From positions 62,001-126,000 of the forward strand of contig CANRNN010000002.1 in assembly GCA_947632025.1 (NCBI GenBank): DNA of 64,000 nucleotides. The letters are read 5' to 3'. The stretch comes from an uncultured Clostridia bacterium (lineage in GTDB: Bacteria > Bacillota > Clostridia > Oscillospirales > Ruminococcaceae). The translations under genes and the position numbers were made by a program. Positions 14,714 through 33,395 of this stretch are shown in pieces. Every line of letters begins with the position of its first letter. Within the stretch, counting starts at the first letter, position 1. Under the pieces are notes generated by a model, which did not search any database, had not been told where the DNA came from, and worked only from the letters and a program-made list of their open reading frames with translations.

Positions 14714-14992
14714 TTAGAAGCGAGAGGTGAGAGGTTAGAGGTTAGAGGTTAGAGCAGCTGCCGCTGCGGGTGTTCGCTTCGCGCCGTGACGAAAACTTGC
14801 AATAATATTGCGCGAGAAAATTCAAGATAATTTTCACAGAAAAAGGTCGGCGAAAACAAATCGTCGACCTTTTATTTTTTAGTCAAATATCGTCCGTTTT
14901 AATCTCTTGCGTAGCAATTTAAATCGTTCGCGTCAGCGAACGTACTTTGTAATCTAACCTCTAACCTCTCACCTCTAACTTCTTGAACGCGC
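14714..14992. repeat. Modular repeat, copy 1 (forward, with terminator)
   Basis: A 279-bp element. It opens with a heptad array (AGAGGTTAGAGGTTAGAGG), then module A (TTCGCTTCGCGCCGTGACG ... TTGCGCGAGAA ... GATAATTTTCACAG), a terminator hairpin GGTCGGCGA/TCGTCGACC with T runs (14845-14880), and module B (CTCTTGCGTAGCAATTTAAAT, stem CGTTCGC/GCGAACG at 14925-14942, GTACTTTGTAATCTAACCTC). It closes with an inverted heptad array. The right array supplies the stop codon of the ABC transporter gene. The stretch 14498-14713 before it holds the spoIIAA leader and nothing else that I can name. Confidence 0.85.
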
Positions 14993-16717
14993 CATTATTA
15001 GTTCTGCATAGAATCCTTTCTTCGCCATCAATTCTTTGTGGTTCCCCTGCTCTACAATATGCCCCGCGTTCATAACCAGAATCAGATCCGCGTCGCGTAT
15101 CGTCGATAGCCTGTGCGCTACCACAAAACTCGTCCGCCCACGCATAAGCTCGTTAAACGCGCTTTGTATCCGCATCTCCGTGCGCGTGTCAATCGACGAC
15201 GTGGCTTCGTCCAGAATAAGCATAGGCGGCGGCGACAACATAACTCTTGCTATGGAAAGCAGCTGCCGCTGTCCCTGCGAAAGCTCCGCTCCGCCCGAAA
15301 TTACCGTGTCATAGCCGTTCTTAAGCCGGCTGATGAACCCGTGAGCGTGCGCCGCCTTTGCCGCAGCGACTATTTCCTCGTCCGAAGCGTCCGGCTTTCC
15401 GTAGGCGATGTTGTCGCGCACCGTCCCCTTAAATATCCACGTTTCCTGTAAAACTATTCCGAAATTCCCTCTAAGACTGTCCCTTGTAAGCTCCCGCACG
15501 GGTATGCCGTCCACCGAAATGACCCCGCCCGTCGTGTCGTAAAACCGCATAAGCAGGTTTATAAGCGTCGTCTTGCCGCAGCCCGTGGGTCCGACAATGG
15601 CGATATGCTGTCCGCTTTTCACGCAGAGGTCGAGGTGTTCGATAAGCGGTTTTTCGGGAGTATACGAGAAGCTCACGTCCGACATATCGACGTTTCCCGT
15701 GCAGTTTTCGAGGACTTTGCCGTCCTTGTCGGAGCTTTCGGACTTCTCGTCAAGAAACGTGAATATCCTGCCCGCAGACGCTAGGGCATTCTGAAGCTCC
15801 GTTATAACTCCCGAAATCTCGTTGAAGGGCTTTGTGTACTGGTTCGCGTACTGCAGGAACGCCGAAAGGTCGCCTATCGTGAACGCTCCCGAAGCTGCCC
15901 TGACCGCGTTAAGCGCTCCGAATATCCCCACGCCCGCGTACACAAGGGAATTTACGAACCGCGTCGACGGATTCGTAAGCGCGGAATAAAACTGCGCCCG
16001 CCTGCCGCAGATGTTAAGACGGGAATTCACCTCCGAAAATTTCCGCTCGGCGGTTTCCTCGTAACCGAATGTTTTTATAAGCCGCTGAGAGCCGATATAT
16101 TCGTTGACAAGCCCCGTAAGCTCCCCGCGTATAGCCGACTGTTCGCGGAATTTGTTGAAGCACAGACTTGATATAACTCCCGCTACCGCGAACGACAGCG
16201 GAGTAAGCACGACCACCACGAGAGTTATCTTAAGATCCAGCGAAGCCATAAAGAACAGCGTTCCGAAGATCGTCACCACTCCCGTAAAAAGCTGCTGAAA
16301 GCCCTGCAAAAGCCCCTCGGAAACGGCGTCCACGTCGTTTACGACGCGTGAGATGATATCGCCGTGCGGCACGGCGTCTATATATTTCAGCGGAAGTTCT
16401 CCGAGCTTTGCGAAGATATCCCTGCGCAGTTTTTTTACTGTTCCGTGAGCGGTCTTGTTCGCGCAGAAATTCATCAGCCACCTAAGTCCTGCGACTGCGG
16501 GTATTATCACGGCAATCTTAAGCAGCGGCACGCTCATTTTTTCGAGAGCGCCCTCAGCTCCTATAAAATCGACCGCCTGACCCAAAAGCACGGTAGTATA
16601 CAACGACAGCAACGTTCCCGCTGCAGCGCACACCATCATAGCAGCCAACAAAAAGCGCTGGGCTTTTAGATAGTGTAAAAGGCGGAGAAGAGAGCCCGTT
16701 TTGTTGATTTTATTCAT
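14975..16717 (-). CDS. ABC exporter half-transporter (multidrug/lipid type), consensus-Glu subunit
   Basis: A 580-residue type IV half-transporter: six membrane helices to about residue 320, then the ATPase domain with Walker A GPTGCGKT, Q-loop GIVLQETWIF, signature LSQGQRQLL and Walker B MLILDEATSSID with the catalytic Glu. The signature has Gln in place of the first Gly, as in subunits that pair with a degenerate partner. The partner gene lies 17 bp upstream. The last codons read RSRS then TAG, and this TAG lies in the heptad array of the adjacent repeat. Confidence 0.9.
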   Translation of the reverse strand: MNKINKTGSLLRLLHYLKAQRFLLAAMMVCAAAGTLLSLYTTVLLGQAVDFIGAEGALEKMSVPLLKIAVIIPAVAGLRWLMNFCANKTAHGTVKKLRRDIFAKLGELPLKYIDAVPHGDIISRVVNDVDAVSEGLLQGFQQLFTGVVTIFGTLFFMASLDLKITLVVVVLTPLSFAVAGVISSLCFNKFREQSAIRGELTGLVNEYIGSQRLIKTFGYEETAERKFSEVNSRLNICGRRAQFYSALTNPSTRFVNSLVYAGVGIFGALNAVRAASGAFTIGDLSAFLQYANQYTKPFNEISGVITELQNALASAGRIFTFLDEKSESSDKDGKVLENCTGNVDMSDVSFSYTPEKPLIEHLDLCVKSGQHIAIVGPTGCGKTTLINLLMRFYDTTGGVISVDGIPVRELTRDSLRGNFGIVLQETWIFKGTVRDNIAYGKPDASDEEIVAAAKAAHAHGFISRLKNGYDTVISGGAELSQGQRQLLSIARVMLSPPPMLILDEATSSIDTRTEMRIQSAFNELMRGRTSFVVAHRLSTIRDADLILVMNAGHIVEQGNHKELMAKKGFYAELIMARSRS

Positions 16718-16734
16718 AATGTTCAGTTACCTCT

Positions 16735-18441
16735 TTACTGCTGTGTACCAAATATTTCTTTATAGACGCTGCAAGTTTCAAGCAACATTTCGTGCTTGCC
16801 ATAGCCCAACGCCTTGCCCTCGTCAAGAACCAGTATGTTGTCCGCGTCCATAATGGAATTAGTTCGCTGCGAAATTATTATCTTGGCAGCGGGTACCGCT
16901 TTCAGAGCCTCGCGGAGTTTCGCGTCAGTGCCGTAATCAAGCGCGCTGGAGCTGTCGTCAAGTATCAATATCTCCGCGCCCTGCGCCACCGCCCGCGCGA
17001 TAGTCAATCGCTGCTTCTGTCCGCCCGAAAAGTTCTTGCCGCCCTGCAATACCACCGCGTCAAGACCGCCGTCAAGCTTTTCCGTAAAGTCCCGCGCCTG
17101 CGCCGTTTCCAGAGCCTGCCACAAAACTTCGTCCGGAATGTCCGTCCTGCCCATGGTGAGATTTTCCCGAAGCGTTCCCGACAAAAGCTCCGCTTTCTGC
17201 GGCACAACAGCCACCAGACGGCAGAGCGTCCCCGCCGTGAATTCCTTTATGTCCGCGCCGTTTATCCGTATCGTGCCGCCTGTGCGGTCGTAGGCGCGGC
17301 GCACAAGCTCCGAAAGCGTCGTTTTTCCCGAACCCGTGCCGCCTATAACGCCCACGGTCTGACCGCGCTGCAATATAAACGAGATGTTTTCAAGGGAATT
17401 TTTCCCGTCGACATACGAAAAGCACACGTTTTCAAATTCGAGAGCAGGCGCGTCGGGACGGGTGTCGGGGTCGTGTTCCGGAAACCTGACGGAGCTTTCC
17501 GTGTCGAACACCTCGTTTATTCTCGCCGAAGAAGCCGCCGCTCTCGTGAAAATGCCGACAAGGTTCGCCACCACGACAAGCGCCAGGGATATCTGCGTCA
17601 TATAATTTATAAGCGCTATGACTTTTCCCTGAGTAAGCCCGTCCGTTCCGACGGCGGCAAATCCCCCGCCGAAGTACGCCAGAGCCAGATACGCGACATT
17701 CACGACGACAAATATGGCGGGGTCCAACAGCGCGTTTATGCGCCCCGCGCGGACGGCGGCACGGCGGTATTCCTCGGTCTTTTCGTCGAAGCGGGCTTTT
17801 TCGTAATCCTGCCGCGAGAATGCCCGAACCACGCGCACGCCCTCAAGGTTCTCACGGGTGATGCGGGAGATGCCGTCAAGGGCTTTCTGTTGTTTTCTGA
17901 AGAGCTTTACGGACGCTTTCATTACGGGATACATCACCGCCACAATAAGCGCCATAGCCGCAAGGAAGATAAGCGACAACCTCGGCGACACTGCAAACGA
18001 CATCGCCGTTGCGCCTATCACGAGGAACGGCGCGCGCACGACAAGCCGTATAAGCATAGCGACAGCCTGCTGGACGGCGTTTACGTCGTTGGTTATTATG
18101 GTGATAAGGGCGGGCGTGCCGAATTTATCGAGTTCCCGACAGGAGAGCGAGTTTATGTGCCGGCACAGGTCGTCCCGCAGGCGCGTTCCCACGCCCTGAG
18201 AAGCGCGGGAAGCCATATACTGGCACACCACCGCGCAAGTCAGACCTGCCGCCGCCAGAATGACGAGCGTCAAGCCTTTTTTCCAAATGTAGGCGGTATC
18301 GCCGTTTGCTATTCCGATGTCTATTATGTCCGCCATAATAAGCGGCACGATAAGTTCAAATATCGCCTCGGTCAGCTTACAGGCGGGACCTATGGTGACA
18401 TTGAAAATAAATTCTTTCAAATATCTTGCAAGGCGCAGCAA
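16735..18441 (-). CDS. ABC exporter half-transporter, degenerate-site subunit
   Basis: A roughly 568-residue half-transporter with six membrane helices and an ATPase domain: Walker A GGTGSGKT, signature FSGGQKQRL, Walker B ILILDDSSSALD. The catalytic Glu is replaced by Asp, as in one subunit of heterodimeric exporters such as BmrCD and TM287/288. Together with the next gene it should form an asymmetric heterodimer. The start was set at the TTG at 18441 because AAGGAG lies about 8 bases upstream; an earlier in-frame TTG at 18459 precedes that site. Confidence 0.88.
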   Translation of the reverse strand: MLRLARYLKEFIFNVTIGPACKLTEAIFELIVPLIMADIIDIGIANGDTAYIWKKGLTLVILAAAGLTCAVVCQYMASRASQGVGTRLRDDLCRHINSLSCRELDKFGTPALITIITNDVNAVQQAVAMLIRLVVRAPFLVIGATAMSFAVSPRLSLIFLAAMALIVAVMYPVMKASVKLFRKQQKALDGISRITRENLEGVRVVRAFSRQDYEKARFDEKTEEYRRAAVRAGRINALLDPAIFVVVNVAYLALAYFGGGFAAVGTDGLTQGKVIALINYMTQISLALVVVANLVGIFTRAAASSARINEVFDTESSVRFPEHDPDTRPDAPALEFENVCFSYVDGKNSLENISFILQRGQTVGVIGGTGSGKTTLSELVRRAYDRTGGTIRINGADIKEFTAGTLCRLVAVVPQKAELLSGTLRENLTMGRTDIPDEVLWQALETAQARDFTEKLDGGLDAVVLQGGKNFSGGQKQRLTIARAVAQGAEILILDDSSSALDYGTDAKLREALKAVPAAKIIISQRTNSIMDADNILVLDEGKALGYGKHEMLLETCSVYKEIFGTQQ

Positions 18442-18475
18442 AACGATTCTCCTTTTCAAATTCCGTCATATAATA

Positions 18476-18504
18476 ATTATACACCAAAAACATCTTTTTG
18501 TAAA
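18476..18504 (-). promoter_or_regulatory. Sigma-A promoter of the ABC exporter operon
   Basis: TTTACA (18499-18504) and TATAAT (18476-18481) on the minus strand are 17 bp apart. It is back to back with the plus-strand promoter at 18512-18540. Confidence 0.75.
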
Positions 18505-18511
18505 TAGCATA

Positions 18512-18540
18512 TTGACAAAAAACCTTTTTAATGCTATAAT
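18512..18540 (+). promoter_or_regulatory. Sigma-A promoter abutting repeat copy 2
   Basis: TTGACA (18512-18517) and TATAAT (18535-18540) are 17 bp apart. The repeat element begins at the very next base, so transcripts to the transglutaminase-like gene at 18844 would carry nearly the whole repeat as leader. Confidence 0.8.
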
Positions 18541-18832
18541 AGAGGTTAGATAGTAAGATGTTAGAGGTTAGAGTTCAGAGAACGCCCGCCTGCGGCGGTC
18601 GATTCCGATTGCTACGCAAGAGATTATCACGGACGAAACGTTTTCGTGATGATTTTTACCTCTTACGTCTGAAAATTGTCTGCAATATTCTCGCGCAATA
18701 GCATTATAAGTTTTTGTCCACGCGCGAAGCGTACTGTCGGCGGCGACCCGCCGCCGTAGCAATTGAAATCGTCGGCAAAGCCGACGTACTTTGAAATCTA
18801 ACCTCTATCCTCTAGCTTTCTAACTTCTAGCA
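18541..18832. repeat. Modular repeat, copy 2 (reverse, rearranged, no GGTCGGCGA terminator)
   Basis: Heptads (GAGGTTAGA, TTAGAGGTTAGAG) open the element. Inverted module B (GATTGCTACGCAAGAGATTA) and inverted module A (CTCGCGCAATAGCATTATAAG, GTCCACGCGCGAAGCG) follow. A second module B end in forward orientation carries the stem GTCGGC/GCCGAC (18771-18785) and GTACTTTGAAATCTAACC, then inverted heptads. In the middle is another hairpin (ATCACG ... CGTGAT followed by GATTTTT). It forms the 5' leader of the next gene. Confidence 0.8.
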
Positions 18833-18843
18833 GGTGATTAAAT

Positions 18844-20310
18844 ATGAAAACACTGTTGTCAATAATAACCGCTCTGTATACGGTCGCGGGGAGCTTCACC
18901 CTGCCTACTCCGCAAGCCCCCGCCGTGTCAAAGGATTCGGGAAGCTACCTCGCAGGCGAGCCTTTGACCGTATACCTGACCGCAGAGCCCGATTCACAGC
19001 TCTTTTACAAGCTGAACGGCGGCGAATATAAGCCCTATACCGGCGGGGTCGTTATCTCCGAAAGTACCGTGCTGTCGGCGTATTCCCAGAAGTACGGCGT
19101 GAAAAGCGAAGTAGTCCGCAAGTCGTTCGTGTTCAAGCCCGCCGTGTCCTTAGACGTTTCGGGAGCGCAGGGTGAAGAGCGCACCGTGCGCCTTAAGTCC
19201 TCCGACAAGAAACTTGTCGTGCGCTATATCATCACCGATAAGGGAAGCTCCGATACACCCGACTCCTCTTCCGATATTTTCCCCGCAGAGGGCATTAAAA
19301 TAACAAAAACCTGTACTCTTAAGCTTATCGCGCTCAGACACGGCTATGCCCCGTTCGAGCTGTCGCAGGATTTTACCGTAAATCCGAAAACTACAACTCC
19401 CACTACTCCCACCACTCCTAAAAAGCCTACAACTCCAACGACACCTACTACTCCAACTACTCCCACGACACCGACTACTCCTACAACTCCAACCACACCT
19501 ACGACACCTACTACTCCCACCACACCTACTACTCCTACAACTCCCGTGGACGAAACTCCGAAAATGAAGGAGAGCGGGATCCTCGGAAAATATAAACAAA
19601 AATGGAATTACAATCAGCTGAGCAGCGCTCAGAAAACAGCATACGAACGTATATACGAGGGCGTTTCGGAATACACTACCGACATAATCCCGCTGGCGGA
19701 TCTGAAACTTACGAGCGACGAGCTATGGGAAACCTACTGGGCGTTCGATTACGACAATCCGCAGTTTATAGGGCTTGGCAACGGATATAAATATTCATAT
19801 AACAACTACACGTCGTCCATAATTTCTATAACTCCTACATACGGCAGGACGAAACAGGAGATAGCTTCTATAAAGGACAAATTCGAGAACATCGCCGCGT
19901 CCGTCGTGTCCGAAGCCAAAAAGCAAGGCGGCGACAAGGCGAAACTTCGGTACATACACGACTATATCGTGAACAGCACGGTCTACAATGCGTCCGCGCC
20001 TGTTTACAGAAGCGAAGCGGACGGACCGCTGTATTACGGGACGGCGCTGTGCGAGGGATATTCAAAGGCGTTTATGTATCTTGCGCAGTCGCTGGGGTAT
20101 CAGTGCATATGCGTGGTAGGCACTGCCAACGGCGGGAACCATATGTGGAATATGGTGAAAGTCGGCGGGGTATGGTATCACGTTGACTGCACGTTTGACG
20201 ACCCTATTGTTTCGGGCGGGGGTCAGGTGCTGCGGGACAATTACTTCCTGTTAAGCGAATCCGAGATAAGCGCGGATCACATTATTGACAATCCCGTGAA
20301 ATTGCCATAA
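18844..20310 (+). CDS. Secreted transglutaminase-like protein with Thr-Pro linker
   Basis: A 488-residue protein with a signal peptide (about residues 1-22). Residues 30-100 resemble the chitobiase C-terminal-like domain (LTVYLTAEPDSQLFYKLNG), and a second beta domain runs to about 180. A linker of some 16 TTP repeats follows at about 182-236. The C-terminal domain is transglutaminase/protease-like: the catalytic Cys is in ALCEGYSKAF, the His in GNHMWNMV and the Asp in YHVDCTFDD. The codons in the linker vary although the peptide repeat is constant. It probably acts on, or attaches to, cell-surface material. The ribosome site AGGTG precedes the ATG. Confidence 0.85.
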   Translation: MKTLLSIITALYTVAGSFTLPTPQAPAVSKDSGSYLAGEPLTVYLTAEPDSQLFYKLNGGEYKPYTGGVVISESTVLSAYSQKYGVKSEVVRKSFVFKPAVSLDVSGAQGEERTVRLKSSDKKLVVRYIITDKGSSDTPDSSSDIFPAEGIKITKTCTLKLIALRHGYAPFELSQDFTVNPKTTTPTTPTTPKKPTTPTTPTTPTTPTTPTTPTTPTTPTTPTTPTTPTTPTTPVDETPKMKESGILGKYKQKWNYNQLSSAQKTAYERIYEGVSEYTTDIIPLADLKLTSDELWETYWAFDYDNPQFIGLGNGYKYSYNNYTSSIISITPTYGRTKQEIASIKDKFENIAASVVSEAKKQGGDKAKLRYIHDYIVNSTVYNASAPVYRSEADGPLYYGTALCEGYSKAFMYLAQSLGYQCICVVGTANGGNHMWNMVKVGGVWYHVDCTFDDPIVSGGGQVLRDNYFLLSESEISADHIIDNPVKLP

Positions 20311-20328
20311 ATGAAAGGAACGGAAAAT

Positions 20329-20454
20329 ATGGCAAAAAGATTTGACAAAAAACCTGACAACAAGCTTGAAAAGGCGATAATGCGCAACTGGATAATCTGC
20401 GGAGCAACAGCGGCGTTGATTATAGTGTTGACCATTATTTCAAGGGTATCGTAG
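20329..20454 (+). CDS. Small single-span membrane protein, 41 residues
   Basis: The frame reads MAKRFDKKPDNKLEKAIMRN followed by a hydrophobic helix (WIICGATAALIIVLTIISRVS). GAAAGGAACGGAAAAT precedes the ATG, and the gene starts 18 bp after the stop of the transglutaminase-like gene. A basic N-terminus and a single membrane span suggest a small membrane-anchored peptide. Its TAG stop is two bases before repeat copy 3. Confidence 0.6.
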   Translation: MAKRFDKKPDNKLEKAIMRNWIICGATAALIIVLTIISRVS

Positions 20455-20456
20455 CG

Positions 20457-20730
20457 GAAGTAAGAGGTAAGAGGTGAGGCGGCTGCCGCCGCGGGCGTTC
20501 GCTTCGCGGCAACTGCCGTTGCGGGCGAACGCTTCGCGCCGTGACGAAAACTTATAAGATAATTGCGCGAGAATATAGGGGATAATTTTCACAGAAAAAG
20601 GTCGGCGAAACAAATCGTCGACCTTTTATTTATCGTCCCGTTTTAACCTCTTGCGTAGCAATTGAAATCGCCCGCCTATGGCGGGCGTACTTTGTAATCT
20701 AACCTCTAACTTCTAAACTCTAACTTCTAG
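20457..20730. repeat. Modular repeat, copy 3 (forward, with terminator)
   Basis: The order is heptads (AAGTAAGAGGTAAGAGGTGAG), an enlarged module A with a duplicated GCGGGCG/TTCGCTTCGCG part, terminator GGTCGGCGA/TCGTCGACC (20600-20623), module B with stem CGCCCGCC/GGCGGGCG (20669-20687), and inverted heptads (TCTAACCTCTAACTTCT). The right array encodes the last four residues and the stop of the aminotransferase on the minus strand. Confidence 0.85.
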
Positions 20731-21984
20731 CGCCGCTAGGCGTACGCATACGCAGAATAATTCCATCGCCTGCCTTAATTCATCTATCGACGGGAAGGTC
20801 GGGGCTATGCGGATATTGCTGTCGTGAGGGTCCTTGCCGTAGGGGTAGGTTGCTCCCGCGTCAGTCAGAATAACTCCCGCGTCCTTTGCAAGCGCTACGA
20901 CACGCTTCGCGCACCCCTCAGGAGCATTGAACGATATGAAATACCCGCCTTTCGGGTGCGTCCACTCGCCTATGCCGCGGGGCTGTAGCTCCTTTTCAAG
21001 CATATACTCCACAAGGTCAAACTTCGGCTTGATTATAGCCGCGTGCGCGCGCATATGCTTCTCTATGCCCTCGTAATTCTTGAAAAACTTGACGTGGCGC
21101 AGCTGGTTGAGTTTGTCAAATCCGATAGTCTGGAACGCCATCTGTTTCTTGATAAAGTCAATGTTCTCCTTTGACGCGCAGATTACGGAAATTCCGCCGC
21201 CCGGAAAGGATATCTTGGACGTGGACGCAAACTCGAACACCATATCCGGATTCCCCGCCTTTTTGCACTCGTCGATTATATTCAGCAGGCTGTCGCGGTC
21301 GTCCGAGAGATGATGAACGCAGTACGCGTTATCCCAGAATATACGGAAATCCTTTGCGGCGGGCTTCAGCTTTGCCAGACGGCGGACGGTTTCGTCCGAG
21401 TAGGTTATTCCCGTAGGATTCGAGTACATCGGCACGCACCATATGCCCTTTACGGTTTCATCGGAAGCGGCAAGGCGCTCTACCTCGTCGATATCGAGGT
21501 CGCCGTTTTTATACTCCACGGTGATCATATCAATTCCGAGAGCCTGACACATAGCGAAATGGCGGTCATAGCCGGGCGCGGGGCAGATAAACTTCACGGA
21601 ATCGTACTTGCTCCACGGCTTTTCGCTTCCGAGAACGCCCAGCTGCATAGCGCGGATAATGGTGTCGTACATCATCTGAAGCGAGGAATTTCCGCCGACG
21701 ATCACCTCGGACGGCTCTACGCCGAGCATATCCGTAAACAGTTCTTTTGCTTCGGGGATACCGTCCAGCACTCCGTACGAACGGCAGTCCGCGCCGCTTT
21801 TTGAGCGGCAGTCCCCGTCCAGACAGTGCAGCAGCATATTTATAGACAGATCCAGCTGTTCCGGCGCGGGCACGCCTCTTGCCATAGTGAGCTTCAAGCC
21901 TTTGGACTTAAGTTCTTCGTACAGGCTTTCGACGGATTTTTTCTCAGCCGCGAGCTGTTCTGCGTTCATTTCGCTGTATTTCAT
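20713..21984 (-). CDS. Class I aminotransferase, MocR/AspAT-like (DUF/Asp_aminotransf family)
   Basis: A PLP-dependent aminotransferase of 423 residues. The PLP lysine is in FASTSKISFPGGG, the Asn of the cofactor pocket in YSNPTGITYSD, the pyridine-N Asp in FWDNAYCVHHL and the substrate Arg in SNIRIAPTFPS. The MARGVPAPEQLDLS start and the length place it with the clostridial aspartate aminotransferase-like group. The C-terminus reads CVCVRLAALEVRV. The last residues EVRV and the TAG stop lie inside repeat copy 3, so the native tail has been replaced. Confidence 0.85.
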   Translation of the reverse strand: MKYSEMNAEQLAAEKKSVESLYEELKSKGLKLTMARGVPAPEQLDLSINMLLHCLDGDCRSKSGADCRSYGVLDGIPEAKELFTDMLGVEPSEVIVGGNSSLQMMYDTIIRAMQLGVLGSEKPWSKYDSVKFICPAPGYDRHFAMCQALGIDMITVEYKNGDLDIDEVERLAASDETVKGIWCVPMYSNPTGITYSDETVRRLAKLKPAAKDFRIFWDNAYCVHHLSDDRDSLLNIIDECKKAGNPDMVFEFASTSKISFPGGGISVICASKENIDFIKKQMAFQTIGFDKLNQLRHVKFFKNYEGIEKHMRAHAAIIKPKFDLVEYMLEKELQPRGIGEWTHPKGGYFISFNAPEGCAKRVVALAKDAGVILTDAGATYPYGKDPHDSNIRIAPTFPSIDELRQAMELFCVCVRLAALEVRV

Positions 21985-22046
21985 AGTACATTATCCTTTC
22001 AAACGAAAAAATTATAGCCATAGCCCTAAAACTACAAACCTTTAAC

Positions 22047-22075: not shown

Positions 22076-22115
22076 GCACTTTTGTAAAATCTTTCAAAAA
22101 ATCGGCAAAAAAACG

Positions 22116-22202: not shown

Positions 22203-22263
22203 ACTAAACGCCCGCTAACGGCGGGCGCTCTCTTATCTCTTACTTCTAACTTCTTACCTCTAT
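22203..22263 (-). terminator. Heptad array joined to a terminator hairpin
   Basis: On the minus strand the response regulator stop TAG begins the array (TAGAGGTAAGAAGTTAGAAG), which runs to AGATAAGAGAG and is followed directly by the hairpin CGCCCGCCGTTAGCGGGCG and TTTAGTTTG. Translation stop, heptads and transcription stop are thus fused within 60 bp. Confidence 0.7.
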
Positions 22264-26116: not shown

Positions 26117-26136
26117 CGACAACATCGCCACCGCAA

Positions 26137-26354
26137 GAAGTTAGAAGTGAGAGGTTAGAGGTTAGATTTCAAAGTACGTCGGCTTTGCCGACGATTGAAT
26201 TGCTGCGCAAGAGATTAAAACGGATAAATCACTTGTAAGCGCAAAGGGTCATCATCGTCCACAATATTCTCGCGCAATATTACGATAAGTTTTCGTCACG
26301 GCGCGAAGCGAACTGTCAGCGGCGACCCGCCGCTCTAACCCCTAACCTCTAATC
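26137..26354. repeat. Modular repeat, copy 4 (reverse, no terminator)
   Basis: The order is heptads (AGAAGTTAGAAGTGAGAGG), inverted module B with stem CGTCGGC/GCCGACG (26177-26193) and TTGCTGCGCAAGAGATTA, a terminator-less centre (AAATCACTTGTAAGCG), inverted module A (ATTCTCGCGCAATATTACG, TCACGGCGCGAAGCG) and heptads (CTAACCCCTAACCTCTAA). Its right end supplies the stop codon of the minus-strand gene that follows. Confidence 0.85.
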
Positions 26355-27443
26355 GTACTGCTTCCAGATGCTTTCCATTCTCGCTTGGTAATCAATGGAT
26401 GAATTATTCGGGCTCTCCGGACAGGAGCGCTCGTTTTCGTCCCCGTCAAGAATTCCCCGATGTTCGGGAGAGTTGTAAAGCGCCGTTATAAGATACGCTT
26501 TCATATTCCGTATCCCGCTGCCGCTGTAGTTTAAGGATTCCAATACGCGGTCAATGTCCGAACCGTTAAGTTTCAGAAATCTGCCTGCGACGGCTGCGCG
26601 GCTTAATTCTTCACCGTTTACGCGCACAGTTTCCTTCGATGAACATATAACCTCAAGCATAACGTCTATGACTTCATCTGCCTTGTGTCTGTCAATAAAG
26701 TGCTGATACTCAATGTTAGAACGAATCAATTCTAAATACTTTTCCCTTTCCCCCTCCCCCTTCGACTTCTCCGCACCGCCGAAGGCGGTCGGGCGCTTAG
26801 GATTGGTGGGGTCAGGATTAGTTATATTAAGATTATTTATATTAGGATTATTATATAGAGCTGTGCGTTTCGTACAAAGCGAAGTGTGCGTTTCGTACAA
26901 AGCAGTTTGTGCAAAACGCTCAAAGCTGTTTGCGCGTTCCGTACATACAGTATCGTCCGTTTCGGCAGGTTTGGGCCGGATTTCTTCCGGAACAGGCTGA
27001 ACAGTCGGGACATTTTCCTGAACGGGCTGAACATTTTCCGTAAAATTACGGACGGAGCGTTCGGGGGTCTGGGAATAGGGATTGAAAGAGGACATAATTT
27101 CATCGCCCTCTACGAGATATTTTTTGAGGAGTTCCAAATCGTCCACGACGTGAAAACAGCGTCGGGAAGATTTTCCGCGCTTCTCGAAGAGGACAAGTCC
27201 CGCGCGGACGAGCAGACCTATAGCGGAATCCTGCTGACGGCGCGAGAGTGCGGTACTTTCCTGAAGGTCGGAGAGGGTCGAATAGAAGAATCCCTCGCTG
27301 TCGAGCATACCGCGCTCCTCGTAGTAGCATTGTTTTGAGAGCAGGGACGAATAGACCACTGCTGCGTTAAGTCCGAGCGAATGAGCCAAGGGTCGGTTCA
27401 CCGAAACCGTATTATTAAAATTCAAGATAGAAGTAATTAACAT
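26349..27443 (-). CDS. Replication-initiator-like protein (DUF6017-type C-terminus)
   Basis: A 364-residue protein starting MLITSILNFNNTV after GGAGGTG. The N-terminal 110 residues form a winged-helix DNA-binding region (SLGLNAAVVYSSLLSKQCYY ... LSDLQESTALSRRQQDSAIGLLVRAGLVLFEKRG) of the kind found in plasmid and conjugative-element replication initiators. A long low-complexity linker contains NPNINNLNITNPDPTNP. The C-terminus (EYQHFIDRHKADEVIDVMLEVICSSKETVRVNGE ... GSGIRNMKAYLITALYNS) matches the DUF6017 type. No origin or mobilisation genes are near, so it is probably a leftover of an integrated element. Its TAG stop lies in repeat copy 4. Confidence 0.75.
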   Translation of the reverse strand: MLITSILNFNNTVSVNRPLAHSLGLNAAVVYSSLLSKQCYYEERGMLDSEGFFYSTLSDLQESTALSRRQQDSAIGLLVRAGLVLFEKRGKSSRRCFHVVDDLELLKKYLVEGDEIMSSFNPYSQTPERSVRNFTENVQPVQENVPTVQPVPEEIRPKPAETDDTVCTERANSFERFAQTALYETHTSLCTKRTALYNNPNINNLNITNPDPTNPKRPTAFGGAEKSKGEGEREKYLELIRSNIEYQHFIDRHKADEVIDVMLEVICSSKETVRVNGEELSRAAVAGRFLKLNGSDIDRVLESLNYSGSGIRNMKAYLITALYNSPEHRGILDGDENERSCPESPNNSSIDYQARMESIWKQYD

Positions 27444-27498
27444 AAGAATACACCTCCTATTTAGATTGTAAAACATTTTGAAATGCAAAAAAATGAAG

Positions 27499-27600
27499 AA
27501 AGAGGTTAGAGGTAAGAGGTTAGATTTCAAAGTACGTCGGCTTTGCCGACGATTGAATTGCTACGCAAGAGAATAAAACGGACGAAAAGCGGGATTTTAG
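27499..27600. repeat. Modular repeat, copy 5 (partial: heptads and module B)
   Basis: Heptads (GAGGTTAGAGGTAAGAGG) and inverted module B (AAAGTACGTCGGCTTTGCCG ... TTGCTACGCAAGAGAATA) are followed by unrelated sequence at about 27585. It lies just upstream of the initiator-like gene. Confidence 0.75.
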
Positions 27601-27656
27601 TGCATAATGCCTAAAATTTCTCTGCTAAAAATCTAAATATTTATGCATTTAGTATC

Positions 27657-27685
27657 TTGTAATGCAAAGTACTTTGGTGTATAAT
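27657..27685 (+). promoter_or_regulatory. Sigma-A promoter of a putative small RNA
   Basis: TTGTAA (27657-27662) and TATAAT (27680-27685) are 17 bp apart and directly precede the long hairpin at 27691-27774. A palindrome (TGCATAA ... TTATGCA, 27601-27647) lies upstream. Confidence 0.7.
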
Positions 27686-27690
27686 AGAGT

Positions 27691-27774
27691 TATGGGGAAC
27701 AGGGGCGCGGATTCCAAAAAAACAAACTCTGCCCGTACACACAATTCTCTTCAAGGCGCTCCTGTAACCTCATA
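27691..27774 (+). ncRNA. Putative structured small RNA (long imperfect hairpin)
   Basis: TATGGGG (27691-27697) pairs with CCTCATA (27768-27774). After a 2x2 internal loop, ACAGGGGCGC (27699-27708) pairs with GCGCTCCTGT (27756-27765), including one G-U. A 47-base loop region remains. A consensus promoter ends six bases upstream. There is no open reading frame, and no clear terminator follows. I do not recognise a family; it could also be a leader for the padR operon. Confidence 0.5.
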
Positions 27775-27821
27775 TCTGGTACATAATCAAAACTTGACAG
27801 TTAAAAAAAGGTTGAAAGTGT

Positions 27822-28023
27822 GTAGAAGTTAGAAGTGAGAGGTTAGAAGTTAGATTACAAAGTACGTCGGCTTTGCCGACGATTTCAATTGCTACGCAAA
27901 AGATTATAACGGATAAATCACTTGCAAGCGACAAGGCGCATCATCGTCCACAATATTCTCGCGCAATATTACGATAAGTTTTTGTCCACGCGCGAAGCGA
28001 ACGCCCGCGGCGGCAGCCGCAGG
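27822..28023. repeat. Modular repeat, copy 6 (reverse, no terminator)
   Basis: Heptads (TAGAAGTTAGAAGTGAGAGG) lead into inverted module B with stem CGTCGGC/GCCGACG, the centre AAATCACTTGCAAGCG and inverted module A (ATTCTCGCGCAATATTACG, GTCCACGCGCGAAGCG). It ends in CGCCCGCGGCGGCAGCCGC without right-hand heptads. It forms the upstream region of the padR operon. Confidence 0.85.
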
Positions 28024-28057
28024 TAATGAAAACAATCACTAAGGGGTGACGATAAAC

Positions 28058-28390
28058 GTGAATTCCCAAATGAAACGCGGTACATTAGAGATGATCGTGC
28101 TTAGTGTGGTCCGGCGCGGGGACTGCTACGGGTACGAGCTGGTACAGCGTATCTCGGAATGTATGGAAATAACCGAGGGAACAGTCTACCCGCTTATGAA
28201 ACGCCTGAAAGACAGCGGTCTTATCGAAAGCTATATAGTGGAATCTTCAGAAGGTCCGCCAAGAAAATACTACAGGATAACAGATAACGGAAAGGGAAAG
28301 CTTGCCGCCTTGTCCGTGGAATGGTTCGCGTTCGTGAAAAGCGTAAGCAGGCTCTTGAAGGGGGACAGCTCAGATGATAGCAACGAATAA
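28058..28390 (+). CDS. PadR-family transcriptional regulator
   Basis: A 110-residue winged-helix repressor. It begins MNSQMKRGTLEMIVLSVVRRGDCYGYELVQRIS, the PadR signature, followed by EGTVYPLMKRLKDSGLIESY and RKYYRITDNGKGKL. The GTG at 28058 follows AAGGGGTG at 8 bases; an upstream in-frame GTG overlaps that site. It overlaps the next gene by 17 bp. PadR/HAAS/DUF4097 operons are a known arrangement in Firmicutes thought to sense envelope stress, with the regulator controlling its own operon. Confidence 0.92.
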   Translation: MNSQMKRGTLEMIVLSVVRRGDCYGYELVQRISECMEITEGTVYPLMKRLKDSGLIESYIVESSEGPPRKYYRITDNGKGKLAALSVEWFAFVKSVSRLLKGDSSDDSNE

Positions 28391-29426
28391 AAAGGAGTTT
28401 TTCGAGCTTCTGGACTACGAACTGAAACGCGTGGGAATAGAAGAAAATGCCGATATCCTCGCGGACTTTGAGGAGCATTTCGCCGACGGCGCTATGAGAG
28501 GTATCCCCGAAGAACAAACAGCAGAACGTCTGGGAGATATAAAGGAAATTGTAAGAGGTTATCTCAACCTCGAAAGCTCCCGTATAAACTCTATTATGGA
28601 ACGGGAACAGGAACGAAAGAAAATTTCCCTCACAAAGCCCGGTCGCTCAAATCCCGCAGATTTGTCACTTATGGACGCACGAAGCCTCGCAAACTCCGAC
28701 GCGGTTCGGGAATTTACCCCCCGCCACCTCTCCGAGGAAATTTATCCTAACGCGGGAACACTCAACAGCACAAATGTTCAAAGCGTTCCGACTTCTTCTC
28801 AAAGCACCTCTAAGCCCGTTCAGGGAGCGGTGAATATGGCGGCTCAAAGCTCAGTCCAAAACAACGCAGGACAAGCCCCGAACTCCACCCCGCAGACAGG
28901 TCAGAACGGCGGTAATGTTAATAATTCCGGAAGTTTTAACAGTTTCAACAAAAGTTTCAACAATAATTTTAACAATAATCTTAACAACGGAGTGCCGCAG
29001 CCGAACAATTCGTTCAGAGAAAACTACAGCAGCGACCGAAAAGGCGTGCTCCCGTCACAATACAAGAAGGTAACAGGCAAAAAGCCGTCGTACAAAATAA
29101 TAGATTTCTCGAACAAGTCGGTAAAGGTAAACGGCGCAAAGCTCGCAAGGGAAATAGTGCTGGACGTGCTTTTGTGGAGCTGGCTGCTGCCGCTGGTGGT
29201 GACGCTGACGGTGGAATTGTTCGTGTGGCTGACGACGTCGTCGTTTACAAACGGGATCGGAGCGTTCACGTCCCATTATTTTATAGTAAGCAGAGTGTTT
29301 CTGGCGATGGGATATTTCTCCGCGTCGGTGCTGTGCGCGCTGCTCGGATTATCAATGATAAGACCCGTGGTAATGCTCGTGAAATACGTCATAAACCGTC
29401 ATATACGGGTCATATTCGATATGTAA
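28374..29426 (+). CDS. HAAS/DUF1700-type membrane protein with Asn-rich linker
   Basis: A 350-residue protein. The N-terminal 75 residues (NKKEFFELLDYELKRVGIEE ... FADGAMRGIPEEQTAERLGDIKEIVRGYL) are a HAAS/DUF1700 helical domain. Residues about 115-225 are a Ser/Asn/Gln-rich spacer with runs such as SFNNNFNNNLNNG. The C-terminal part holds two long hydrophobic segments (VLLWSWLLPLVVTLTVELFVW and VFLAMGYFSASVLCALLGL). The HAAS domain is thought to contact the PadR regulator. The long Asn-rich spacer is unusual. Confidence 0.82.
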   Translation: MIATNKKEFFELLDYELKRVGIEENADILADFEEHFADGAMRGIPEEQTAERLGDIKEIVRGYLNLESSRINSIMEREQERKKISLTKPGRSNPADLSLMDARSLANSDAVREFTPRHLSEEIYPNAGTLNSTNVQSVPTSSQSTSKPVQGAVNMAAQSSVQNNAGQAPNSTPQTGQNGGNVNNSGSFNSFNKSFNNNFNNNLNNGVPQPNNSFRENYSSDRKGVLPSQYKKVTGKKPSYKIIDFSNKSVKVNGAKLAREIVLDVLLWSWLLPLVVTLTVELFVWLTTSSFTNGIGAFTSHYFIVSRVFLAMGYFSASVLCALLGLSMIRPVVMLVKYVINRHIRVIFDM

Positions 29427-29447
29427 GTCAAGGGGGCGGATACGGCT

Positions 29448-30848
29448 ATGATAAAAGGAATAATAATTTCCGCAGCAATAAGCGTGACGTGCTTTCTGAT
29501 ATTCTTTGCGACGGAAGCACTGTACAGCGTCGTGCGCTCGTCGGGATACGACCGTAATGCAAATTCGGTATACATCGTCGAAAACGCCGAAGAAACACGG
29601 GCGGTGTTCGATACGGTGGTTCAGGGAACGGATTCCAAAACCGACTATATGTGGACGGTCAACAACGATTTCCCGAATATACACCTCAACACTTCGGGCG
29701 CGAGAGTCTTTGTAAAACAGTACGACGGCGACAGAATAAATATCTATGCGAGAGTGCCCAGCGGCAAGAAAATACACGCCGCGGCGCGGTATACTCCCGA
29801 CGATTCAGACCTCACCATAATTGCGGCAGAGCCGAACGTTTCGTTTGACGACCAGTCCGACACGTTCAATACCGTAAACTGGCGCGAGGACGTTTTCGGC
29901 GGGGACGACGGGATAGAGCTTGTCATCTCGTTTCCGAGGACGATATATGATACTCTGGAAATAAAGCACGGTTCGGGAGAGATGTATATTTCCGACCTCT
30001 ATTCCGAAAACACGAATATTGCGGTAGGTTCGGGAACGCTCGCATTTGAACGCAGCCGCGAATATCTGTCATACGCGCTGAGTACGCAGATAAACTCCGG
30101 AAAAGCGTCGCTTAAAAACGTCTACGCGCGTTCGTCGACTGTGGCGGTAAATTCGGGAACGCTGCTTGCGGAATACGGCGAAAACGGCTTCGCGCCGGCA
30201 TATATGAGCCTTGATATGAAATCGGGAAAGGCATATGTAAACGGCGGGACGTTCAAGGAATTTACCGCGAAGCTGGATTCGGGAAAGCTTATGGGAAACT
30301 TCTCGTCCGAGAAGCTTAACGCCGACGTCGGTACGGGACGCGCCGACCTTGCGGCAAAGGTGCTTTCGGAAGCGGAGCTTGATGTTTCGGGCGGAAAGCT
30401 CTGCCTGTATCCTGCCGAGGGCGGAAGTCTGGACGCGGTCTTTGTGACTTCGGGAAGTATCGAGCTTGAATACGACGGCTTGTCAAGAATGCTTACTGCC
30501 GATACCGACGACAACGCCGAATTCGGCAGCGGAGATAGTTTTATCAGCGCGTCGGTGGAAACGGGGTCGATATTTATCGGGGAATATGAAAAAGCTCCGT
30601 CCATAGAATTCACCTACCCGCTTGACCCCATACCCGAAGCGCCCACCATCTCGGCAGCTACGGACAATGGCACGGGAGTAACAGTTATTGAGCCTGACAC
30701 GGCATCTGCATATATAGGGTCAATTTCCTCCGGATATATTTCTTCAAATCAAGAACCGCAGGACAGCGGAGTGCAGCAGGATATTCCCGAACAGTCTGAC
30801 AGTGTTGAATCATCTACTTTTATCGGAAATGAGGAAAAGCAAACGTGA
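29448..30848 (+). CDS. DUF4097-type beta-helix envelope protein
   Basis: A 466-residue protein with one N-terminal membrane segment (IIISAAISVTCFLIFFATEALYSV). Repeated short beta strands follow (LEIKHGSGEMYISDLYSENTNIAVGSG, INSGKASLKNVYA, VNSGTLLAEY, LDSGKLMGNF), typical of the DUF4097 adhesin-like beta-helix. The last 90 residues are a Pro/Ser/Gln-rich tail. It lies 21 bp behind the HAAS gene in the same operon. It is probably the sensor or effector facing outwards. Confidence 0.82.
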   Translation: MIKGIIISAAISVTCFLIFFATEALYSVVRSSGYDRNANSVYIVENAEETRAVFDTVVQGTDSKTDYMWTVNNDFPNIHLNTSGARVFVKQYDGDRINIYARVPSGKKIHAAARYTPDDSDLTIIAAEPNVSFDDQSDTFNTVNWREDVFGGDDGIELVISFPRTIYDTLEIKHGSGEMYISDLYSENTNIAVGSGTLAFERSREYLSYALSTQINSGKASLKNVYARSSTVAVNSGTLLAEYGENGFAPAYMSLDMKSGKAYVNGGTFKEFTAKLDSGKLMGNFSSEKLNADVGTGRADLAAKVLSEAELDVSGGKLCLYPAEGGSLDAVFVTSGSIELEYDGLSRMLTADTDDNAEFGSGDSFISASVETGSIFIGEYEKAPSIEFTYPLDPIPEAPTISAATDNGTGVTVIEPDTASAYIGSISSGYISSNQEPQDSGVQQDIPEQSDSVESSTFIGNEEKQT

Positions 30849-31039
30849 AAAAACTGTTTATAATTAAATTATTTGGAACAAAGTTTTCTTTTACCGTACC
30901 TGTTGGATTCTCGTTCGGAGAAATATCGGAAGAGCAGCTCAAATTCTGCACAAAGGCAAAACGAATTTTTTGTCCACACATTGCAACTGGCGGCTCGCCG
31001 CCGCGGGCGTTCGCTTCGCGCCGTGACAAAAGTTTATAA
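30845..31039 (+). pseudogene. Possible gene remnant running into repeat copy 7
   Basis: A GTG overlapping the DUF4097 stop opens a frame MKKLFIIKLFGTKFSFTVPVGFS... of 64 codons. The last third is encoded by the repeat (GGSPPRAFASRRDKSL). The first 40 residues could be a short peptide or the beginning of a gene cut by the repeat insertion. Confidence 0.3.
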
Positions 31040-31214
31040 CAGTATTGCGCGAGAATATAGTGGATAATTTTCACAGAAAAAGGTCGGCGAAACAAATCGT
31101 CGACCTTTAATTTTTAGTTATCCGTTTTAACTTCTTGCGTAGCAATTCAATCGTTCGCGTCAGCGAACGTACTTTGTAATCTAACCTCTAACTTCTCACC
31201 TCTAACCTCTCTAA
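30985..31214. repeat. Modular repeat, copy 7 (forward, with terminator)
   Basis: Module A (GGCGGCTCGCCGCCGCGGGC, TTCGCTTCGCGCCGTGACA, ATTGCGCGAGAATATAGTGG) starts without left heptads. The terminator GGTCGGCGA/TCGTCGACC (31082-31105), module B with stem CGTTCGC/GCGAACG (31152-31169), and inverted heptads (TCTAACCTCTAACTTCTCAC) follow. Confidence 0.85.
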
Positions 31215-31290
31215 AACAGCATTTATTTGCAGTTTATTTTGTGTTAAAATATAGATAACACAGAAGTAATATAAAAATTGAGGTGATACA

Positions 31291-31566
31291 ATGTCCGCTA
31301 AAATGTCTGTCGGCGAATATCTCGAAAAGTATAACAGCTCCTTCGTTAAATTCGGAAGAATGTTCGCTAAAAAACTTACAGATGAAAACCTTATCTCCGC
31401 TCTGGCAGAAAAGGATCTCGAAAAACTCGCTAAGGTCTGGAAGCTCGTGTTTGAAATGCTTTCGGAAAACTCCGATAACGATAAGACCGATAAGCTTGCC
31501 GAGCTTATCTCCGCTTACGTTCAGCCCGAATCTTCAGACCCCGACAAGGAGTGTGACGACGAATGA
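31291..31566 (+). CDS. Small acidic helical protein paired with the terminase
   Basis: A 91-residue protein (MSAKMSVGEYLEKYNSSFVK) without a recognised family. It is largely helical with an acidic tail (PESSDPDKECDDE). GAGGTGATACA precedes the ATG, and the stop overlaps the terminase start by 4 bp. Its position suggests a small terminase subunit or an accessory factor, but no DNA-binding motif is clear. Confidence 0.6.
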   Translation: MSAKMSVGEYLEKYNSSFVKFGRMFAKKLTDENLISALAEKDLEKLAKVWKLVFEMLSENSDNDKTDKLAELISAYVQPESSDPDKECDDE

Positions 31567-32786
31567 CTTTCTCCCCGAAACAACAAGCCGTGCTTTCACT
31601 GCTGCGAAACGGCGGATTTCGGCGCATAAATATCTTCGAGGGCAGCGTCCGCAGCGGAAAAACTTGGATCTCTATGGTCGTGTGGGGATTCTGGATAGCA
31701 GGTTCGCCGAAAGGTTCGGCGTATCTTATGGCAGGGAAAACTCTCGGAACTCTTAAAAGAAATGTTCTGGAGCCTATGCAGTCCCTGTTCGGCAGCGCCT
31801 TTTCATTCAACATTCCCAAAAAAGAAGCCGTCCTTTTCGGCAGGAAAATATATCTCGAAGGCGCGTCCAATTCCGAAAGCGAAAGCAAAATACGCGGTAT
31901 GACGCTTATGGGAGCATACTGCGACGAGCTGACATTGTTTGACGAGGATTTTTTTGTTATGCTGCTTTCAAGGCTCTCCGAAAAGAACGCAAAGCTTTTT
32001 GCGACGACAAATCCCGACAGCCCGCGCCACTGGGTCAAGCGCGACTATCTCGACAACAAGACGCTTGATTTATTGTCCGTAAAATTCACGCTGGAAGACA
32101 ACATTTTCCTGCCGCGAGAGTATGTGGACACGCTCAGGCGGGAGTTTACGGGAGTGTTCTACGACCGCTATATTCTCGGAAAATGGACGGTGGCGGAAGG
32201 TCGCGTATACGAGAGCTTTTCGAGAGCGTGCGTTATCCCGTCAAAGGAGATAGCGCGGCGATTTTCGGAGGACCCGCCTATATTCTCGGTGATAGGGGTT
32301 GATTACGGCGGCAGTGCAAGTGCTTCGGCGTTTGTTCAGGTGGTGTTCGGTCGGGGATTCAGGAACGTGTATGTCGTATCGGAGCATTACGACAGCGCGA
32401 ACCGTTCGGCGGAAGTGCTTATCTCGGAGTTTACGGAGTATGCGCGGCGGGCTTGCGGGGTATTTCCCGTGGCGGCGGTATATTGTGACAGCGCGGAGCA
32501 GCTGCTGGTAAAGAGTTTCCGGCAGGCTGTGCGGCTCAACGTAAAGAACGCCCTGAAGCGTCCGATAAACACGCGGATAAACCTGTTGAACCGTCTGATA
32601 AGCGCGGGACGTTTTTTTGTATCTGAGGATTGCCCGCACGTTGTGGAAGCGGTAGAGGGAGCGGTCTGGGACGAGAGCGACACTCACCGCGACAAGCGTC
32701 TTGACGACGGAACGTCCAACATTGACAGTCTTGACGCGCTCGAATACGGTTTAGAAAGATATGAAAGGGAGCTTTTCGGTTTGTAG
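31563..32786 (+). CDS. Phage terminase large subunit, PBSX type
   Basis: A complete 407-residue TerL. The ATPase has Walker A GSVRSGKT, Walker B MGAYCDELTLFDED and the coupling motif LFATTNPDSPRHW. The RNase H-like nuclease has VIGVDYGG, VYCDSAEQ and a late Asp in NIDSLDALEYGLERY. It would cut and pump viral DNA into a capsid. No portal, capsid or tail gene is near, and repeat copies flank it on both sides. All active-site residues remain, so it has been kept or acquired recently. The TAG stop is provided by the heptad array of repeat copy 8. Confidence 0.9.
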   Translation: MTFSPKQQAVLSLLRNGGFRRINIFEGSVRSGKTWISMVVWGFWIAGSPKGSAYLMAGKTLGTLKRNVLEPMQSLFGSAFSFNIPKKEAVLFGRKIYLEGASNSESESKIRGMTLMGAYCDELTLFDEDFFVMLLSRLSEKNAKLFATTNPDSPRHWVKRDYLDNKTLDLLSVKFTLEDNIFLPREYVDTLRREFTGVFYDRYILGKWTVAEGRVYESFSRACVIPSKEIARRFSEDPPIFSVIGVDYGGSASASAFVQVVFGRGFRNVYVVSEHYDSANRSAEVLISEFTEYARRACGVFPVAAVYCDSAEQLLVKSFRQAVRLNVKNALKRPINTRINLLNRLISAGRFFVSEDCPHVVEAVEGAVWDESDTHRDKRLDDGTSNIDSLDALEYGLERYERELFGL

Positions 32787-32888
32787 AAGTAAGAGGTGAG
32801 AGGTTAGAGCGGCGAATCGCCGCTGATAGTTCGCTTCGCGCCGTGACAAAAACTTATAAGATAATTGCGCGAGAATATAGTGGATAAG
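32784..32888. repeat. Modular repeat, copy 8 (partial: heptads and module A)
   Basis: Heptads (TAGAAGTAAGAGGTGAGAGG) that begin with the terminase stop codon are followed by module A (GCGGCGAATCGCCGC, TTCGCTTCGCGCCGTGACA, TTGCGCGAGAATATAGTGG). Similarity ends at about 32888. Confidence 0.8.
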
Positions 32889-32918
32889 GGATTTTGAGCG
32901 TAAAGTTTTAAAAACTGC

Positions 32919-32947
32919 TTGACTATTTTTGCGAAAGGCGTTATAAT
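32919..32947 (+). promoter_or_regulatory. Sigma-A promoter of the 52-residue protein
   Basis: TTGACT (32919-32924) and TATAAT (32942-32947) are 17 bp apart, about 47 bp before the GTG start. Confidence 0.75.
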
Positions 32948-32993
32948 ATAAGTAACGGGAAAAACATTGTGTTAAAATATCGGGGGCGATAAT

Positions 32994-33152
32994 GTGACGA
33001 GTGATGAATTATGCACACAATACGAATTGCTTGTTGCGCTTATTGAAACAGGCAATGCCGACAAGGCGGTCGAGATACTGAAAGACGCTGTAAAACGCAT
33101 TAAAGGCACGGATAACGAATCTTCCAAATCCGACAGCGCAAACAAAAACTAG
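32994..33152 (+). CDS. Small helical protein, 52 residues
   Basis: The frame starts with GTG seven bases after GGGGG and reads MTSDELCTQYELLVALIETG, then NADKAVEILKDAVKRIK and a polar tail. It looks like a TPR-like helix pair. The TAG stop touches the first base of repeat copy 9. A consensus promoter supports expression. The family is unknown. Confidence 0.5.
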   Translation: MTSDELCTQYELLVALIETGNADKAVEILKDAVKRIKGTDNESSKSDSANKN

Positions 33153-33395
33153 GCGGCTGCCGCCGCGGGCGTTCGGCGGCGAATCGCCGCTGATAGTTCG
33201 CTTCGCGCCGTGACGAAAACTTATAAGATAATTGCGCGAGAATATTCAAGATAATTTTCACAGAAAAAGGTCGGCGAAACAAATCGTCGACCTCTTATTT
33301 TTTAATCTGAAAATCGTCCGCAATTTTCTCGCGCAGTAGCATTATAAGTCCTCGTCCACGCGCGAAGCGAACGCCCGCGGCGGCAGCCGCTCGGT
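33153..33395. repeat. Modular repeat, copy 9 (inverted dimer of module A around the terminator)
   Basis: Forward module A (GGCGGCTGCCGCCGCGGGCG, TTCGCTTCGCGCCGTGACG, TTGCGCGAGAATATTCAAG), the terminator GGTCGGCGA/TCGTCGACC (33269-33292), and then inverted module A (TTTTCTCGCGCAGTAGCATT, GTCCACGCGCGAAGCG, CGCCCGCGGCGGCAGCCGC). Module B and the heptads are missing. The whole block is one large palindrome. Confidence 0.8.

Follow-up and report, generated by a model that had tools for sequence, protein, structure and literature searches.

A 64,000-nt stretch of the genome of an uncultured Ruminococcaceae gut bacterium (Clostridia; assembly GCA_947632025.1, contig CANRNN010000002.1, positions 62,001–126,000; G000:C2:62001-126000 in our numbering, from the 2.36 Mb, 31-contig genome G000), hereafter the window, carries a family of dispersed modular repeats, in which short hairpins lie between or within tandem arrays of a 7-nt unit (heptad). 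This family is real and far above chance. Comparison of sites between related genomes shows that elements turn over, that cores are exchanged and turned and stem alleles exchanged, and that one core is clearly flipped. We tentatively propose, with somewhat less than even confidence, that the repeats are intergenic hairpin cassettes in heptad arrays, remodelled by template switching or short-repeat recombination and by exchange between nested inverted repeats.

Clusters were read in 21 stretches (~214 kb), namely the window and 20 others picked from genome-wide repeat matches. There, 55 clusters with heptads or modules were found, 30 of them with non-heptad modules; two of these 30 (C1:405272 and C1:405448) are pieces of a single element, and some of the heptad-only clusters are just two units. 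With up to two mismatches allowed, the window has 55 matches to GTTAGAGGTTAGA, where 1.0 would be expected (shuffle maximum 4); module A (26 nt, up to three mismatches) matches six times, B-left five, B-right seven and the terminator-like hairpin three times, each against 0 to 0.01 expected. Genome-wide, a two-unit heptad pattern matched 83 times and its reversed control five times, and one complete copy yielded 72 BLAST matches across G000. Among tandem periods of 4–12 in the window, period 7 is represented by four arrays, and the other two, 9 and 12, fit coding sequence. The preliminary description of the window had proposed a dispersed modular family with covarying stems, which is upheld here, and all nine of its copies were found where it had placed them. 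Its remark that copies are usually bordered by arrays holds in part, since those at 27499, 27822, 30985, 32784 and 33153 are incomplete or have no array on at least one side. Beyond the nine copies, the window contains further arrays at 22230-22257 (with a GC hairpin), 43386-43453, 48882-48965 and 61201-61273.

In canonical order, an element consists of heptads, module A, a T-tailed hairpin (GGTCGGCG..CGTCGACCTTTT), module B and opposed heptads. Within this heptad frame modules are also inverted, doubled or truncated, and in the clusters of the 21 stretches every module-B end (CGTACTTTGTAATCTAACC) that was found lies next to an array. The polarity of the frame is nearly invariant: among opposed arrays less than 600 bases apart in the stretches of this genus, (GTTAGAG)n precedes (CTCTAAC)n in 26 of 27 pairs, the exception spanning two neighbouring elements. 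Folded as RNA, the complete element at 14714 has z = -10.0, with its two arrays paired as an outer stem. The elements of the window are as follows:

14720..14979, plus strand: complete composite of heptads, module A, terminator-like hairpin, module B (CGTTCGC stem) and opposed heptads, from motif matches and fold
14841..14873, unstranded: terminator-like hairpin AAAAGGTCGGCG..CGTCGACCTTTT with a T tail, within the 14720..14979 element
14925..14942, plus strand: module B hairpin, allele CGTTCGC/GCGAACG
18538..18831, unstranded: composite with module-B ends on both sides, the left one being the mismatched stem allele
20460..20731, plus strand: composite with the CGCCCGCC stem, between convergent genes (DNA fold z = -4.5)
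22207..22257, minus strand: GC hairpin and heptad array
26140..26353, minus strand: composite, module B then module A, heptads on both sides
27498..27580, minus strand: half element, heptads and module B only
27828..28001, minus strand: element within the leader of the PadR family gene at 28046-28390, following a promoter-like site (27657-27685)
31010..31213, plus strand: element without left heptads, CGTTCGC stem
32789..32878, plus strand: half element, heptads and module A
33197..33371, unstranded: module A, terminator-like hairpin and inverted module A, no heptads
43386..43453, plus strand: lone heptad array
48882..48965, plus strand: lone heptad array of about 12 units
61201..61273, plus strand: lone degenerate heptad array

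The composite at 18538..18831 begins where a TTGACA-17-TATAAT promoter-like site (18512-18540) ends, and fills the leader of a transglutaminase-like gene at 18844.

Module B was counted by its flanks regardless of pairing, which gave 43 rows; window 54418, window 18609, L199 and L212 were dropped as unrelated or double and L192 was added, leaving 40 copies in three species, 37 of them distinct. Across the 37, 95.0% of 259 cells are paired, and 0 of 500 shuffles reached this value. The stems that the preliminary description had read at 14925/31152, at 18771/26177/27541/27861 and at 20669 are as it gave them. In all, four stem alleles were found. Three of them, TCGGC, TTCGC and CCCGCC, are paired, two copies (TTTGC and one TCGGC) through a G-U pair; in the fourth, ACCGCC, the first base is opposite a G. 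The fourth stem, CGACCGCC/GGCGGGCG, with its uncompensated A-G mismatch, was absent from the earlier description and has a window copy at 18603 (minus strand). That description had taken non-compensatory stem changes as the observation that would speak against its proposal: 26 of the 37 distinct copies pair fully, and the remaining 11 carry the uncompensated mismatch. In module B, neither two-sided pair changes nor pair types are more numerous than in the shuffles (321 and 479 of 500 reached these numbers). The same few stem alleles are common to the three species at unrelated sites, and at site S5 the stem is switched between TCGGC and TTCGC inside the same flanks. Given the few shared alleles and the lasting mismatch, the module-B stems are a small allele set, mostly copied or exchanged as units, with pairing not strictly kept. 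Of the two earlier alternatives, stems selected for pairing or stems copied as a unit, copying is the better reading for module B. Covariation alone is no proof of RNA function, because template switching also produces it, as passages in PMC8794818 and PMC8604942 describe.

To compare sites, the relatives G025 and G009 were used, whose blocks longer than 1 kb are 86–94% identical to each other (11 of 13 at 90–94%). No element is present in G025 or G009 at any of the four comparable window sites (18541, 20457, 22230 and 27822), nor in G036 at the first two, and at the 20457 ortholog the relatives carry an ordinary terminator-like hairpin. At 14714 and 26137-27499 the neighbours differ in the relatives. 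At other sites, elements are shared by position and differ internally; at T1, G002 and G005 have a whole element that G010 lacks.

The cores between the arrays were aligned in direct and inverted orientation, with 15.5 as the largest score of 200 shuffles in any test. Three of the four long cores common to G025 and G009 differ in orientation, wholly or in their inner part. The clearest case is S3 of G000 and G025, which scores 113.0 inverted (116 of 120 columns) against 28.0 direct; the two are mutual best matches among ten cores, the next best scores being 67.5 and 71.5, and we read them as the same core inverted in place, a clear flip. S5 of G025 and G009 is a probable flip, with 79.5 inverted against 21.0 direct and a reciprocal best match, but the G009 core matches another core nearly as well (77.5). 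Between the same two genomes, S2 scores 65.5 inverted against 13.0 direct, and S3 scores 71.5 against 52.0, its inner part matching in 71 of 79 columns inverted and 55 of 83 direct. For S3 of G000 and G009, the direct score (67.5) exceeds the inverted one (55.0).

A second hairpin, termed h, is 30-33 nt long without its flanking TAA and lies inside heptads, in contexts such as CTCTAA-h-TAACCTC; matches to its model occur outside heptads too. Its 30 copies, 28 of them distinct, have 95.1% of 324 cells paired, a value that 0 of 500 shuffles reached and that is biased upward, because the seeds were picked for being hairpins, matches beyond E 9e-8 were left out and the alignment was made to follow the structure. 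Six of 12 pairs are changed on both sides, and slid versions of the pairing pair only 29–51%. Judged on these alignments, h shows more varied compensation than module B and fares better in the test for compensatory change. Its presence is polymorphic at eight of nine comparable sites in two clades. It is filled in G009 and empty in G025 at S2-right, S3-right, S4-left (a less clean case, the left flank being unlike in G025) and S11, filled in G025 and empty in G009 at S8 and S9, and filled in G009 and G000 and empty in G025 at S7. At S4-right it is filled in both G009 and G025, and at T5, in the second clade, it is filled in G010 and G002 and empty in G005 and G007. In an element of a probable relative (L105:2665-2891), hairpins with the stem GCAATCCGC/GCGGATTGC, another h-like stem, were also seen inside heptads.

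We suggest the following scheme for the hairpin cassettes. The opposed arrays (GTTAGAG)n/(CTCTAAC)n would form an outer stem, with the module B, module A and h hairpins inside it or within the arrays. Remodelling would be driven by template switching at replication, or by short-repeat recombination, between the nested inverted repeats, such that one arm templates its partner and the segment between the arms can flip, while conversion between arrays would spread stem alleles and hairpins among sites. None of these steps would need a dedicated transposase, and joint changes of the two arms would arise without selection on RNA if template switching acts. Passages in PMC8604942 and PMC8794818 describe template switching at short inverted repeats that makes arms identical and inverts spacers.

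Several observations weigh against this scheme. The yeast spacers inverted in this way are a few bases long, with arms of more than 9 bp required, according to parts of PMC8604942, whereas about 100–135 bp were turned here. Constant correction of one arm by the other would not leave the mismatched ACCGCC allele in all three species. At S2 the cores of G025 and G009 are not mutual best matches, both being closer to the neighbouring S1 core of G009 (77.0), and a core copied in from elsewhere is as good an explanation as a flip; likewise the whole S3 core of G009 finds its best match in S4 of G025 (80.0), and exchange between sites is as likely there as a flip. S4 of G025 and G009 is not inverted at all (104.0 direct against 22.0). 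At S11, h stands at an array end with little homology on one side, which looks like transposition, and since the scheme leaves the first arrival at heptad-free sites unexplained, a mobilising enzyme may be needed there. Finally, the relatives are draft assemblies of 50–270 contigs.

That last point raises the question of whether short-read misassembly of repeats, which can break or mix contigs, has produced the inversions and swaps. We hold this to be very unlikely, given that the S3 core is inverted between two independent genomes (116 of 120 columns) with no other core so close, and that h, at about 33 nt, lies at most of its sites inside contigs and varies in presence in two clades. A site-specific recombinase flipping the cores, as in invertons, would account for the core turned between inverted repeats in G000 and G025. 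At S3, however, orientation is different at two levels, one nested in the other, whose repeat ends are degenerate and unlike, and the arrays are variable in both length and sequence; we consider such a system very unlikely. Also improbable is that the elements are selected RNA or DNA signals, such as terminators or leader hairpins in which selection maintains the pairing. The T hairpin does have a T tail, and the 20457 element stands in place of the relatives' terminator-like hairpin; where a terminator was replaced by the T hairpin, the latter may itself terminate transcription. A -10-like or Shine-Dalgarno-like motif also lies within about 20 bases in 22 of 63 array clusters, a count without a chance control. 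But elements of the window occur in divergent, convergent and tandem gene contexts alike, four orthologous sites have none in the relatives, modules have been swapped, turned round or cut short, and the same stem alleles, one of them mismatched, recur at unrelated sites.

A distinct possibility, though in our view not a probable one, is that the repeats are non-autonomous mobile elements, with an enzyme acting in trans to move h and the composites, and T(A/T)A in the heptads serving as the target of h. The filled and empty pairs of h sites, the dozens of matches per genome and the element missing as a whole at T1 in G010 would all be expected from such elements; the h copies printed inside heptads have a single orientation relative to the heptad strand, and 18 of 30 aligned copies have T(A/T)A at both ends. 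The apparent 3–5 bp duplications at h, on the other hand, are indistinguishable from the heptad unit itself, and an enzyme was looked for with little success. No transposase domain was found in the 37 window open reading frames scanned with Pfam at 1e-5, a subset of all, which agrees with the earlier statement that the window has no transposase. Nine h-rich draft genomes (G009, G025, G002, G005, G007, G010, G011, G034 and G064) have no match to Y1 transposase (PF01797) or reverse transcriptase (PF00078), other transposase families not having been searched there; they make up all but one, G065, of the ten genomes with at least 30 h matches, and the genomes searched for enzymes are 83–100% complete. 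G000 has one match to each. Both enzymes were dropped as candidate drivers on these grounds. The lack of a reverse transcriptase match argues against an RNA route using one of the genomes' own. Neither the mobile RNA nor the selection on pairing suggested in the preliminary description was demonstrated. In G065, three h-model matches (C10:1273-1305, C15:17795-17827 and C16:24798-24830) each fall, at an identical offset, within a Y1 transposase match, a possible link of h-like hairpins to a transposon copy.

Considering these points together, we still favour, as tentatively as stated above, hairpin cassettes remodelled within their heptad arrays. A complete copy had matches, largely through its heptads, in 14 of 61 genomes, every one of them belonging to the 37 of this genus; among the matches listed, module A was confined to G000, and module-B parts occurred also in G009 and G025. 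The h model matched in 27 of 43 genus genomes (E 0.01), most often in G034 (90), G005 (85), G009 (77), G025 (66) and G065 (54), with eight matches in G000, these counts including matches outside heptads and probably both strands of one hairpin. At least 118 stretches, spread over many phyla, contain three exact GTTAGAG units. Some of the named loci are rabbit-gut metagenome-assembled genomes labelled ‘uncultured Clostridia’ that moderately resemble this genus. When run on 36 of the 118 named loci, the h model gave three weak matches only, all in L105. At loci of other taxa, all 14 close pairs of opposed arrays have the same GTTAGAG/CTCTAAC polarity; the 14 are not independent, several being related Prevotellaceae or Bacteroidales and L105 and L116 probably relatives of this genus. 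It could be speculated that opposed heptad arrays of this polarity are a general device in many phyla, which captures, homogenises, exchanges and flips enzyme-free hairpin cassettes, a transposase-free and replication-driven kind of mobile DNA; we consider a claim of this breadth rather unlikely.

Prevotellaceae and Bacteroidales loci L109, L120, L141, L149 and L173 have in common a short core, GGATTGTTTGGGATGCTG..CCAAAGGTATTC and variants of it, framed by opposed GTTAGAG arrays. Core flipping in the Prevotellaceae loci was considered and dropped, because in symmetric frames orientation is meaningful only relative to the outer genes. Other heptads exist as well: at S1, where the arrays of G000 and G009 are GTTAGAG, those of G025 consist of another unit (ACAGTNN / NNACTGT by eye). 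Read by eye as TACTGTT / AATTGTC, a second type makes up arrays in G025 and the second clade (L189:1130-1380 and L276:6570-6670), taking the place of GTTAGAG at S1. The 23S intervening-sequence protein (PF05635), tried as a partner of the heptads, had no match in the genome, but its control also matched nowhere; a motif search near the 118 named arrays gave one weak match, in L096.

With Rfam, nothing in the window reached the gathering score except a bacterial small signal recognition particle RNA at 2285-2383 (minus strand), relaxed matches being far below gathering scores. Plasmid and phage collections had no match to one copy, and a viral collection had none to one exact 25-base pattern. 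Between the elements lies a terminase large subunit gene (PF03237, PF04466; window 31563-32786), a similar gene standing beside ABC transporter genes in G036, and a tandem repeat of 9-54 bp (19391-19544) lies inside the transglutaminase-like gene.

The closest known counterparts are the small dispersed repeats (SDR) of cyanobacteria, which Elhai et al. 2008 (Genome Res 18:1484) reportedly described as hairpins of 21-27 nt in tandem heptamers, with compensatory changes, nested insertions and signs of recent mobility; an enzyme for them is not known. The earlier view that no named family matches is right as far as Rfam goes, but heptamer-embedded hairpins with compensatory changes are a known kind in cyanobacteria. 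Both sets of repeats consist of short hairpins of common structure with compensatory stem changes, embedded in tandem heptamers; nested insertions, recent mobility and the lack of a known enzyme are likewise common to the two, and the repeats described here work like SDR in kind. They differ in occurring in Clostridia, in the length of h (30-33 nt), in forming composites with opposed arrays, in having cores that are exchanged and, in one clear case, flipped at orthologous sites, and in the lack of a reverse transcriptase match in nine of ten h-rich genomes. Because size and taxon differ, we did not file them as members of SDR. The cyanobacterial work is cited in passages of PMC4390886 and PMC3116915; among open-licence PMC papers no earlier report in Clostridia was found, which is no proof of absence.

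Intergenic heptamer arrays are on record in other bacteria too. Parts of PMC4692102 describe intergenic GGGAATC arrays in Xanthomonas, with 70 and 75 convergent pairs in the same convergent order, and parts of PMC4679880 describe TAACTGA arrays in Beggiatoaceae, cyanobacteria and Bacteroidetes. So far as these sources go, such STRR-like arrays share with ours degenerate period-7 units between genes, varying in length and sequence between close species, whereas our heptad is another one and its arrays frame multi-hairpin cores that get exchanged. REP/REPIN elements with RAYT, in the passages of PMC3116915, are likewise dispersed intergenic palindromes with compensatory changes, but here most h-rich genomes have no Y1 transposase match and the frame is made of heptads. 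Compared with miniature inverted-repeat transposable elements, the opposed arrays would stand for the inverted repeats, while duplications are inseparable from heptads and no transposase domain accompanies them in the window reading frames scanned; compared with invertons, one clear (S3 of G000 and G025) and one probable (S5) inversion were found, between species. Template-switch footprints, as passages of PMC8604942 and PMC8794818 present them, share identical arms and inverted spacers at inverted repeats, but they concern single inverted repeats with short spacers in yeast genes and RNA genes, whereas the cassettes here are nested and dispersed.

Close species pairs that differ by 33-nt hairpin inserts make the spread of the smallest repeats and of heptamer arrays testable outside cyanobacteria. 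Stem covariation is commonly read as a sign of selected RNA. Here it accompanies a few shared alleles and cores that are turned or exchanged, which points to an origin by copying or mutation and cautions against reading covariation in that way.

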